Below, piece by piece: positions 1 to 37,793 of a stretch of DNA of 37,793 nt. Position 1 is the stretch's first letter, and each line of letters starts with the position of its first letter. The stretch lies in IMG/VR virus record IMGVR_UViG_3300046315_000119, positions 1 through 37,793 of that record. One strand, given 5' to 3'. A program made the position numbers and the translations under genes. Source of the stretch: a virus. The notes under the pieces were generated by a model, which was not told where the DNA came from, made no database searches, and was given only the letters and a program-made list of their open reading frames with translations.

Positions 1-196
1 ATATCACTTGCTATATCGTTGACTATATTGTATTGCATAATAAAACTATTATAACATATATTATTTTTACTACCCCTCTTTTTTATAACTTTATAAGAGA
101 GTAAAAAGAAAATAAATAAATAATCCCAAAAAACTACCTTTATCTGTTAAATCCGTTATGATACCCAAAAAAAACTTTATTTTTTCACAAGAAAAT
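1..196. repeat. Left copy of 196-base terminal direct repeat
   Basis: Bases 1-196 match 37598-37793 except at one place: A at 128 against C at 37725, at a C-run/A-run junction. T7-like podoviruses carry direct terminal repeats of this size, but the same pattern arises when an assembler opens a circular map with overlap. The right copy holds the start and promoter of the leftward gene at 37447-37635. Confidence 0.9.
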
Positions 197-220
197 AAAC
201 AAAAAAATAGGTATCATAAC
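155..220. repeat. Nested AT-rich inverted repeat in the divergent control region
   Basis: The outer arms GTTATGATACC (155-165) and GGTATCATAAC (210-220) are perfect 11-base complements. Inside, TTTATTTT (176-183) pairs with AAAATAAA (192-199) around an 8-base loop, and A-runs lie between the two stem layers. The site lies between the leftward and rightward promoters. It could be an operator, a cruciform at a replication origin or a packaging/end site; the sequence alone does not decide. Confidence 0.7.
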
Positions 221-324
221 AAAATGCGTATTTTCTACAACACTTTTTCTATTTTCACCACCTCTGTTAATTTTTGCAAAATTCACAATATACCGATAAT
301 GTATAAAAATAAACCATAAAAGCA

Positions 325-353
325 TTGACGTACATGCTTTTTTTTGCTATTAT
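325..353 (+). promoter_or_regulatory. Strong sigma70-type promoter of the large RNA and early operon
   Basis: -35 TTGACG (325-330), a 17-base spacer and -10 TATTAT (348-353). Predicted start is about 360, immediately before a 5-bp hairpin at 361-378. This is the best-matching promoter of the rightward block. Confidence 0.8.
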
Positions 354-359
354 TAATAC

Positions 360-1000
360 ATAACCAAAGCAAAGGTTACACCGAAAAGCACCTACACAAT
401 CCGCCAAAGTCTAAAAGATGAATTATACATAAATCATCACTTCACGGAAAAAGGTACTCAAGCACTAACCGCTTCAGTTATACACCTTAAAAATTTATCG
501 CCATTTTGACCGTCCTAGTGAAAGTCTAAGCGTGTAAAGCCTGTAGCTCTATCGGAGCGTAAATCGACGGTTTGCCTCGTAAGCCTCGCACAATATGGAA
601 CGTCAGAGCGATAAATGATAAGAACCGCACATTTTACAATTACAACCGCACGAACGAGTCAGACGACGCAGCAATGCGTAGCAGTAGACAATCAAGGTAT
701 CTGACAGCAAATGCAAGCGTAATGCAGTAATCGACATTTAACAATTCGGCAAATGGAATCACAAGCAATCGAGTGCAGCATGGCTGTTACCACGAAATGC
801 GGTTGCTTGTGGCTCAAATATTGATGACGATGGTATAAGTCCGAAGTGGCGACCACGGTCATAGTGTGGTTAATGGTAGCAAGGCAGAAAAGACATTAAA
901 ACAGCGTTCCTTGCAGGCACTTCGTCATCAATATTTGGGTTTTCTCTCACCCCTGATTAGGTGGACTATTCGGCGGTGAGAGCCAACGCAAAGGCTATTA
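360..1000 (+). ncRNA. Large structured phage RNA candidate (ROOL/GOLLD-like in size and setting)
   Basis: About 640 bases with no convincing reading frame but many perfect pairings. They are 361-365/374-378; 493-501/608-616 (9 bp) enclosing 508-514/566-572 and 546-549/555-558; 658-663/700-705 enclosing a 5-bp stem with GCAA loop (666-679); 709-713/735-739; 760-771/800-811 (12 bp, one G-U) enclosing a hairpin at 773-793; 815-830/922-937 (16 bp, perfect) enclosing 846-849/853-856 and 879-884/909-914; 944-951/975-982; and 981-984/993-996. A consensus promoter starts just upstream. ROOL and GOLLD RNAs are known large phage-borne RNAs of about 580-830 bases; I cannot tell whether this belongs to either. 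No U-tract terminator follows, so it may be a processed RNA or the leader of the early operon. The 5' and 3' limits are approximate. Confidence 0.75.
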
Positions 1001-1024
1001 AAAAAATAAACAAAGGAATATAAA

Positions 1025-1087
1025 ATGCAAATCAAATCAGTAAAATTCGACAAACAAGGCAACATTAAAGCAGTGAAGTTTCAATAG
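1025..1087 (+). CDS. 20-residue micro-peptide at the head of the early operon
   Basis: An ATG follows an AAAGGA ribosome binding site directly after the large RNA. The 20-residue product contains two similar halves, SVKFDKQG and AVKFQ. It stops one base before the next ATG. I do not recognise it. It could be a genuine peptide or a leader ORF that brings ribosomes to the operon; codon support is minimal at this length. Confidence 0.45.
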   Translation: MQIKSVKFDKQGNIKAVKFQ

Positions 1088-1088
1088 T

Positions 1089-1166
1089 ATGACAACTTTT
1101 CTCTTTATGATAGCAATAATTTTAATATGTGAAGGCGTTGAACGCCTCAAGAAACGGAGCAAATAA
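1089..1166 (+). CDS. 25-residue membrane micro-peptide
   Basis: An ATG lies one base after the previous stop, and the stop lies one base before the ATG at 1168. Residues 3-14 are almost wholly hydrophobic (TFLFMIAIILIC) and a basic tail follows (ERLKKRSK). That is the look of a single-pass membrane peptide with a positive cytoplasmic end. There is no clear Shine-Dalgarno sequence, so translation would depend on coupling. Function is unknown. Confidence 0.4.
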   Translation: MTTFLFMIAIILICEGVERLKKRSK

Positions 1167-1167
1167 C

Positions 1168-1587
1168 ATGAGCGCATACATTATGAACGAAGACGAGATA
1201 AATATCATTGTCGGCTACTTTTTGAAGCCTCACAATTCAGGCGTTAATGGCACTGGTTTGTGGACTAAAATCGGCGACAATTATGACCATATCAACGCCG
1301 AGAACGCACGAGAAATCGGAAAAATTCTTTTCGATGAGAATGTTCGCAGCGTTGAGGGTCGTTACAATTCAAATGAAAATCACGAGTACTGTTTTCGCTT
1401 TATGGCAGGCGCTCACAAGCGACCAGTCGGCAATATTGCAGGCGCTCTTGATTGTTTAGAGTACCAGAGTTGTGAAAGCGACAACTGGCACGAAACAAAT
1501 GCTTGGCACATTATTTGTGATATGCGTAAAGAATTATTAAAGGAAATTGCCGAAAAAGACGGCACTTATACCTGGGGGATTGAATAA
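1168..1587 (+). CDS. Conserved phage hypothetical protein, 139 aa
   Basis: I do not know its function, but the make-up matches a small protein often seen in early regions of phages of Gram-positive bacteria. It has a central block around GKILFDENVRSVEGRY, a middle block around CLEYQSCESDNWHET and a C-terminal helix. The start is placed at the ATG at 1168, which has a GGAG site 9 bases upstream and directly follows the micro-peptide stop; a GTG 39 bases further upstream is in frame but lacks a ribosome site. The conserved aromatic/cysteine/acidic pattern suggests a folded soluble protein. Confidence 0.8.
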   Translation: MSAYIMNEDEINIIVGYFLKPHNSGVNGTGLWTKIGDNYDHINAENAREIGKILFDENVRSVEGRYNSNENHEYCFRFMAGAHKRPVGNIAGALDCLEYQSCESDNWHETNAWHIICDMRKELLKEIAEKDGTYTWGIE

Positions 1588-3305: not shown

Positions 3306-3641
3306 ATGGCACAAAACGAACTATTAGTAAAATTTGAAAAGAACCAGATGGCAATAGCCAAGCTGAACAAGCAAATTGAAAAAGAGGTCGGTCACCAAAT
3401 CGAGAAGCGCGCGGAGCTTGAGGCACAAAACGCCGACATGCGCCAAGCAATTCTTGAGGCGATGGAAGCCAACGGTGTCACGAAGTTTGACGGTGATTTA
3501 ATCACTATCACCTACGTCGCGCCGAGCAAGCGCAACACCTTTGACAGCAAGAAATTTGCCGAAGAGCGACCAAAGACCTACGAGAAATATCTCAGGGTTA
3601 CAGAGGTCAAGGCGTCAATTCGTCTAAAAGTCAAGGCGTAA
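3306..3641 (+). CDS. Gp157-like coiled-coil protein, 111 aa
   Basis: The N-terminal half is a long helix (about residues 5-55, with EKEVGHQIEKRAELEAQNADM). The C-terminal half is beta-rich, around LEAMEANGVTKFDGDLITITY. This is the layout of the Siphovirus Gp157 family, whose members lie beside phage recombination genes and have been linked to protection from host nucleases or phage resistance. Here the gene directly precedes and is coupled to the YqaJ exonuclease (stop and ATG overlap at 3639-3643). Family assignment is by pattern only. Confidence 0.65.
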   Translation: MAQNELLVKFEKNQMAIAKLNKQIEKEVGHQIEKRAELEAQNADMRQAILEAMEANGVTKFDGDLITITYVAPSKRNTFDSKKFAEERPKTYEKYLRVTEVKASIRLKVKA

Positions 3642-4464: not shown

Positions 4465-4493
4465 TTGCATTGTGTATTTCGCCGTGCTACAAT
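4465..4493 (+). promoter_or_regulatory. Internal sigma70-type promoter before the recombination ATPase
   Basis: -35 TTGCAT (465-470 of the 4 kb block), a 17-base spacer and TACAAT (4488-4493), with TG at the extended position (TGCTACAAT). Start predicted near 4500, where AGC/GCT (4502-4504/4514-4516) can close a loop of AAAAGCAAA. The 4457-4538 gap holds this promoter and leader. Confidence 0.7.
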
Positions 4494-4538
4494 AGTGGTA
4501 CAGCAAAAGCAAAGCTACAAAGAAGGAGAGAATAGGAC

Positions 4539-37239: not shown

Positions 37240-37273
37240 AAAATTATCTCCTACAGCTTTTTAAGCTATCCCC

Positions 37274-37302
37274 ATAGTATCACGCGGAGCACGAACTGTA
37301 AA
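37274..37302 (-). promoter_or_regulatory. Strong leftward promoter of the 37239-> operon
   Basis: On the - strand: -35 TTTACA (37302-37297), 17 bases, -10 TACTAT (37279-37274). Predicted start at 37267, exactly where an AGCTT/AAGCT hairpin (37267-37255) begins. The rest of the 37240-37446 gap is AT-rich with a pyrimidine tract. Confidence 0.78.
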
Positions 37303-37367
37303 CACTTTTTTTATGTTGTTTTGAGTTATTTGTCGTGGGGGAATATGTGCGTATATATATAATATTA

Positions 37368-37446: not shown

Positions 37447-37635
37447 TTATTGCTTATGTATACTAGCGCGTGCGTGTTGCCTAGCATAACGCTTCAACAT
37501 ATCATCAGACACGCGCCTATCGTGGCGTGCCCTCTCACGTCTCTTGCGTATTCTGAATCGTTCACTCACTTTAAGCTGTTGCCTGTCTATATCCTCTATA
37601 TCACTTGCTATATCGTTGACTATATTGTATTGCAT
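37447..37635 (-). CDS. Basic protein at the left-going end, possibly leaderless, 62 aa
   Basis: Residues 18-62 are rich in Arg/Lys (KVSERFRIRKRRERARHDRR); the N-terminus is acidic (DIASDIEDIDRQQ). It looks like a small DNA- or RNA-binding helix pair. A TGT-TATAAT box ends only nine bases before the ATG and there is no Shine-Dalgarno sequence, so the mRNA would have a 3-base leader at most. Its first 38 bases lie in the terminal repeat. Confidence 0.6.
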   Translation of the reverse strand: MQYNIVNDIASDIEDIDRQQLKVSERFRIRKRRERARHDRRVSDDMLKRYARQHARASIHKQ

Positions 37636-37793
37636 AATAAAACTATTATAACATATATTATTTTTACTACCCCTCTTTTTTATAACTTTATAAGAGAGTA
37701 AAAAGAAAATAAATAAATAATCCCCAAAAACTACCTTTATCTGTTAAATCCGTTATGATACCCAAAAAAAACTTTATTTTTTCACAAGAAAAT
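37598..37793. repeat. Right copy of 196-base terminal direct repeat
   Basis: Second copy of bases 1-196, differing only at 37725. It contains the first 38 bases of the leftward gene 37447-37635 and its predicted -10 box. It ends inside the inner arm of the inverted repeat that is whole only at 155-220. Confidence 0.9.
37645..37653 (-). promoter_or_regulatory. Leftward extended -10 promoter in the terminal repeat
   Basis: TGT-TATAAT on the - strand (-10 at 37650-37645). The same sequence occurs in the left repeat copy at about 48-56. Downstream TATAATAGTTTTAT matches the promoter at 29344-29352. No good -35. Confidence 0.55.

Follow-up and report, generated by a model that had tools for sequence, protein, structure and literature searches.

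A large modular leader RNA with boxA-like sites heading the early operon of an uncultivated phage: a candidate anti-termination leader

Introduction

The nut site of phage lambda, composed of boxA and boxB and bound by N and the Nus factors, is a cis-acting anti-termination element. To our knowledge, few RNA-encoded anti-termination systems have been described and those of phages have mostly been studied in lambdoid coliphages. The put RNA of HK022 is about 70 nt long, consists of two stem-loops, requires no boxA and contacts the zinc-binding domain of the RNA polymerase beta-prime subunit (PMC9378689). In bacterial rRNA operons, the boxA of the leader directs the assembly of a Nus-factor anti-termination complex (PMC5725501, PMC10250234), the gamma-proteobacterial consensus being GYTCTTTAANA (PMC5725501). 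Two large RNAs of another kind, ROOL and GOLLD, are encoded by genes usually located near tRNA islands (PMC12286853).

Here we describe a structured RNA in the 37.8 kb genome of an uncultivated phage from an IMG/VR record; the window hereafter designates this whole 37.8 kb stretch of DNA. A preliminary description had proposed that an ornate RNA, either one of ROOL and GOLLD or a new class, occupies positions 360-1000 at the head of the early operon.

Results

A structured leader opens the early operon

The window carries a 196-bp direct terminal repeat (1-196 versus 37598-37793, 99.5% identical) and is therefore probably the whole of a circularly mapping genome, whose end-to-end junction is spanned by contig 3300046314_000574 (L002). 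Replication-type genes form a rightward operon between 1.0 and about 11.4 kb; the structural genes are oriented leftward. The structured region opens the rightward early operon and has the following landmarks:

325-353, plus strand: early promoter TTGACG-17-TATTAT, sigma-70-type, from a consensus scan
359-1024, plus strand: whole structured leader RNA, from the start site (~359) to the first start codon, recognised by its fold z-score and by homologous leaders in seven phages
361-378, plus strand: start hairpin UAACC-AAAGCAAA-GGUUA at about +1, present in all relatives
1025-1087, plus strand: first ORF of the operon, 20 codons, preceded by AAAGGA, read from the sequence

The promoter named in the preliminary description is thus present and starts the leader, and all relatives share it, with the -10 box 5 nt ahead of CATA. 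The region was rightly said to hold no convincing ORF, none longer than 56 aa being found in 360-1000 on either strand, and to be structured: the minimum free energy of 355-1010 was -170 kcal/mol (z = -3.6, none of 20 shuffles as good) and the fold of 359-1024 gave z = -2.85 (none of 60 shuffles as good). The span of 360-1000 had to be extended to about 359-1024, up to the first start codon. The leader continues straight into the ribosome-binding site (Shine-Dalgarno) of the first early gene, and no terminator was found on the plus strand between leader and gene.

Several sequence elements surround this operon start. Positions 1-320, just upstream of the early promoter, form an AT-rich intergenic stretch which separates the divergent operons and is likely a replication origin. 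An operator-like inverted repeat (GTTATGATACC ... GGTATCATAAC) lies at about 157-222, 5' of the promoter. A motif resembling CCnCCTCTGTTA was found about 80 nt 5' of the promoter in all relatives, and TTATCCACA, the DnaA-box consensus, occurs just upstream of the early promoter in L009 and L010. The leftward operon has its own promoter, TTTACA-17-TACTAT, at about 37250-37310 on the minus strand, followed by a +1 hairpin with a different loop (ATAGCTTAAAAAGCTGTAG) and then by a ribosome-binding site.

Leaders of related phages vary in length and share a start hairpin

Related phages, designated here by locus numbers, were collected through their terminase (20 loci) and, for additional ones, through the start-hairpin pattern, a primase-like protein and a YqaJ-like protein. 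Part of what the pattern scans yielded was set aside: the output of the hairpin-pattern scan of IMG/VR was mostly an unrelated, highly conserved sequence, and the promoter-plus-hairpin scan also picked up phages whose GCAAAGG resembles a Shine-Dalgarno sequence. Compared by blastn with 50,697 phage records, the leader gave short chance matches only. Start site and start codon could be fixed for eight distinct leaders, window included, which measure 666 nt in the window, 737 in L077, 502 in L048, 386 in L012, 486 in L066, 410 in L067, 512 in L080 and 382 in L119. The leaders of the seven relatives therefore span 382-737 nt, an almost twofold spread, with fold z-scores of -1.3 to -8.2; L077 is identical to L065 over 900 nt. 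A ninth phage (L021, identical to L093) has the promoter, the start hairpin and the ribosome-binding site without the long leader.

In every relative, UAGC-[AACGCAAAG]-GCUA or a close variant, with a GCAAAG loop, is found at about +1 of the leader, and the A-U pair of the start hairpin is replaced by G-C in the UAGC/GCUA versions. In the window, the sequence 364-378 is directly repeated at 983-997 (87% identity) as part of a second start-type hairpin, which lies just 5' of the ribosome-binding site of the first gene in the window, L066 and L067. In the predicted folds this second hairpin shares its 5' half with the leader's last long helix, so that the two may be alternative pairings. UAGC..GCUA hairpins with a GCAAAG-type loop also occur in these genomes at +1 of further early promoters without a long leader, directly followed by a ribosome-binding site (window 4465-4518; L066 3989; L067 2063 and 6511; L080 7122).

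Compensating mutations maintain two large hairpins

All four helices named in the preliminary description were found: 815-830/922-937 (16 of 16 pairs), 760-771/800-811 (12 pairs, one of them G-U), 493-501/608-616 (9 of 9) and 658-663/700-705 (6 of 6). They belong to the following domains:

493-616, plus strand: domain closed by helix 493-501/608-616
658-705, plus strand: domain closed by helix 658-663/700-705, with a homologous domain in L048
760-811, plus strand: hairpin A, covarying in five phages and matched by a covariance model
813-939, plus strand: hairpin B, helix 813-829/923-939, corresponding to the 815-830/922-937 helix and directly 3' of hairpin A
944-982, plus strand: last hairpin, ahead of the second start-type hairpin, from the fold, with a counterpart in L066 and L067
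981-997, plus strand: second start-type hairpin AGCC-AACGCAAA-GGCU, at the same place in L066 and L067

The 944-982 hairpin was considered as a terminator and rejected, as it has no U run and the second start-type hairpin is located directly 3' of it.

Since sequence alignment of whole leaders worked at their ends only, covariation was analysed domain by domain. In hairpin A, five phages gave 42 countable cells for the nine outer pairs, all of them standard pairs (100%), with changes on both sides in five of these nine pairs, while sliding the partner strand by 1-3 columns reduced pairing to 24-51%. Over the whole hairpin, the three best-aligned phages show changes on both sides in 11 of 20 pairs, compared to 3.8 ± 1.6 in shuffles. 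A covariance model built from these three phages, with the window left out, matched the window at 760-815 (E = 1.9e-9) and L048 (E = 6e-4); in 172 kb it had no match besides these two and its own three sequences, and it matched none of 14 further related phage records, which include many fragments stopping short of the leader. In hairpin B, aligned in four phages with one bulged U of L077 omitted by hand, 67 of 68 cells were paired (98.5%) and 10 of 17 pairs covaried. Of the listed helices, 760-771/800-811 and 815-830/922-937 therefore pass the test set in the preliminary description, compensating changes across related phages.

Elsewhere the changes were fewer. Helix 658-663/700-705 passed this test on a small scale, showing two double changes relative to its counterpart in L048 alone, while helix 493-501/608-616 had no alignable relative and lies outside the covariation data. 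Among the 59 pairs predicted for the 3' domain of the close pair L066/L067, double compensatory changes were counted four times and a one-sided change once, with no pair broken, and the counterpart of the 944-982 hairpin in these phages shows two double compensatory changes. As the alignments are small and partly hand-made, the case for structure under selection, kept by compensating mutations, is strong for hairpins A and B and suggestive for the other parts of the leader.

boxA-like sites in all eight leaders

A motif of the form GCACnTTWACAATT was present in one to four copies in each of the eight leaders, often at a spacing of about 100 nt. The window has four sites, scored where indicated with a matrix of Patescibacteria rRNA boxA:

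388-401, plus strand: boxA-like site 1, GCACCTACACAATC, weak (5.9 bits)
482-495, plus strand: boxA-like site 2, ACACCTTAAAAATT (10.6 bits)
627-641, plus strand: boxA-like site 3, GCACATTTTACAATT, the consensus plus one base, a direct repeat with site 4
733-746, plus strand: boxA-like site 4, GACATTTAACAATT (8.6 bits)

The motif of site 3 takes the form GCACATTTACAA in L077, L048 and L012. The exact core TTAACAATT was found in six of the eight leaders, where 0.06 occurrences were expected in all eight together.

The matrix was trained solely on sequences upstream of Patescibacteria 16S genes, no phage data being used; it was one remote terminase relative, and not an identified phage host, that suggested this group. 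An expectation-maximisation search for the strongest motif in these 16S leaders returned GAACTTTaACAATTgA in 22 leaders. This de novo boxA-like motif lies about 50-290 nt 5' of the 16S gene in L136-L165 (Patescibacteria) and mostly carries A at position 3, a T in E. coli. The summed best scores of the eight phage leaders reached 106.6 compared to 26.7 ± 9.6 for shuffled sequences (maximum 52.4 in 300), and 13 sites exceeded 8 bits where 0.8 were expected. By this matrix, a boxA-like element is located in the promoter-proximal untranslated leader of all eight phages, as in rrn and nut-type systems. In the folds, the boxA-like sites were less paired than the remainder of the leaders (0.60 vs 0.44). 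The leader is an array of folded RNA modules with boxA-like sites in between.

Taken by themselves, the sites of the window reach only a moderate 5.9-10.6 bits, a level equalled or exceeded at a few other positions of the window (15.4 bits at 3329, minus strand); the boxA case consequently rests on the leader family and not on the window alone. The strict gamma-proteobacterial GYTCTTTAANA had no match in the phage leaders. The phage motif departs from it chiefly at position 3, with A instead of T. Since most Patescibacteria 16S leaders also have A there, deviation from the E. coli boxA was no longer taken to speak against a boxA. The phage form GCACTTTAACAATTTA itself is present in one Patescibacteria rRNA leader. 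Patescibacteria were absent from the eight best full-text literature matches on boxA antitermination, and GAACTTTaACAATT, derived from their 16S leaders, is a candidate boxA consensus for this group.

The host was approached by several routes. In a genome profile scan, the only cellular relative of the terminase was a remote one (25% identity) in one Gottesmanbacteria MAG; similarly remote terminases were found in phages of many bacteria. At E 1e-40 the terminase profile found nothing in 287 Patescibacteria genomes. In 380 Patescibacteria genomes, two matches of 32-35 nt at 91% identity fell in ordinary sequence without CRISPR-like repeats, and the hairpin A model had no match. In having A at position 3 of the boxA-like sites, the phages agree better with Patescibacteria than with gamma-proteobacteria, and their host may perhaps belong to the former, although neither this base nor the Gottesmanbacteria terminase is proof, because remote terminases are widespread and no close relative, CRISPR spacer or RNA match was found in up to 380 Patescibacteria genomes.

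The leader is a new RNA family

No structured-RNA family of Rfam matched the whole window at gathering thresholds. In window 1-1300, at E values up to 10, three chance-level matches were obtained, with ROOL, GOLLD, OLE and HEARO absent, and the loci of six relatives had no match at E up to 0.5. Membership of any of these four families is unsupported, their covariance models being without a match, and group I or II introns and ribozymes were rejected for want of an Rfam match. The window contains no tRNA gene. The identification with ROOL or GOLLD offered in the preliminary description was abandoned: there is no Rfam match, there are no tRNA genes, the RNA has no terminator of its own, its length varies about twofold and it forms the 5' leader of early genes. 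The alternative offered there, a new class, is supported for this conserved structured RNA, and the leader is a new RNA family.

Discussion

We propose, with a probability of about 0.5, that 359-1024 is the leader of the early-operon mRNA and acts in cis, recruiting Nus factors for anti-termination, as a modular and much enlarged equivalent of nut, put and rrn leaders. Action in cis is suggested by three features that the preliminary description had not noted, namely the boxA-like sites, the duplication of the start hairpin and the construction from modules; Nus recruitment, anti-termination and each protein partner are what we infer. Once the polymerase leaves the promoter, the leader would recruit host NusB-S10 to the boxA-like sites, and NusA, NusG and SuhB-type partners would join. 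Hairpins A and B and the last hairpin might position or stabilise the Nus complex, or contact the polymerase themselves, and the polymerase so modified would pass Rho-dependent and other terminators along the early operon (~1.0-11.4 kb). The start hairpin at +1, repeated ahead of the first gene, could protect the 5' end or bind a phage or host protein. This proposal is favoured by the covariation of hairpins A and B and the model match on the window, by the passage without terminator into a ribosome-binding site, by boxA-like sites that are enriched in the eight leaders, present in every one of them and less paired than the rest, including six occurrences of TTAACAATT, and by precedents in kind among phages, HK022 put (PMC9378689) and lambda nut. 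Against it stand the A at position 3 in place of the T of the gamma-proteobacterial consensus, the scores of the window's own sites, the phage L093/L021 which manages without a long leader, and the search with Pfam, which recognised no N-like protein among ten window proteins, nine of them early, small N proteins being easily missed. A more tentative possibility is a new class of large modular phage RNA with a variable number of boxA-headed folded units, which, beyond loading Nus factors, would bind RNA polymerase directly, in a put-like manner but at 5-10 times the size, or become a separate RNA after processing.

The main rival to the anti-termination leader, which we regard as rather unlikely, is that an ornate RNA of a new class is released from the early transcript and works in trans, by itself or in oligomeric form, resembling ROOL or GOLLD in kind. 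The size and complexity of the leader and the covariation of its helices would suit such an RNA, its near-continuous long helices might be cut by RNase III and the second start-type hairpin would then cap the processed mRNA; however, the lack of an Rfam match, lengths of 382 to 737 nt among relatives, the direct run into the ribosome-binding site and the absence of the long RNA in L093/L021 argue against it. The +1 hairpins at early promoters lacking a long leader, and the overlap of the last long helix with the second start-type hairpin near the ribosome-binding site, suggest instead that the leader might act in cis on mRNA stability or translation, its hairpins and helices blocking decay or gating the first ribosome-binding site with the boxA-like sites as incidental unpaired linkers. 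This would leave unexplained both the boxA-like enrichment and the need for 400-700 nt of folded RNA, and we consider it unlikely. Early expression, repeated modules and fast divergence among relatives would also fit a decoy or sponge directed against host defence or regulators (e.g. a toxin-antitoxin antidote or a polymerase-binding decoy), an improbable reading given the conserved position at the head of the operon, the lack of a separate terminator and the lack of a family match. Most improbable is a pre-primer RNA made beside a replication origin: the AT-rich stretch between the divergent operons and TTATCCACA in L009 and L010 speak for it, but the origin-like stretch is located upstream of the promoter and not downstream, the RNA leads into genes and L093/L021 has no long leader.

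If the anti-termination proposal is true, phages far removed from the lambdoid coliphages also make use of the rRNA anti-termination route. A large modular boxA-bearing leader would be retained by uncultivated phages, perhaps of Patescibacteria, and it constitutes a testable RNA family whose core is backed by covariation.

Among known systems, ROOL and GOLLD (PMC12286853) resemble the window leader as large ornate phage RNAs of a similar size class, whereas the leader is co-transcribed without a terminator, has no tRNAs nearby and varies almost twofold in length; their trait is a homo-oligomeric RNA cage, while the leader is known here from sequence and folds. HK022 put, compared by size and layout alone, is likewise a phage early leader at the transcript start whose RNA structure itself may act on the polymerase, but the leaders described here measure 380-740 nt and carry boxA-like sites. 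As in lambda nut, a boxA-like element and hairpins start a phage early operon; the window leader is, however, 6-10 times longer, has other hairpin loops and has no recognised boxB or N protein. With rRNA operon leaders (PMC5725501, PMC10250234) it shares a promoter-proximal, non-coding position, boxA-like sites matching a 16S-leader matrix and folded RNA around them, although it precedes phage early protein genes, has one to four sites and contains large phage-specific hairpins. At position 3 of these sites the phages have A, as do most Patescibacteria leaders, where the E. coli rRNA boxA has T.
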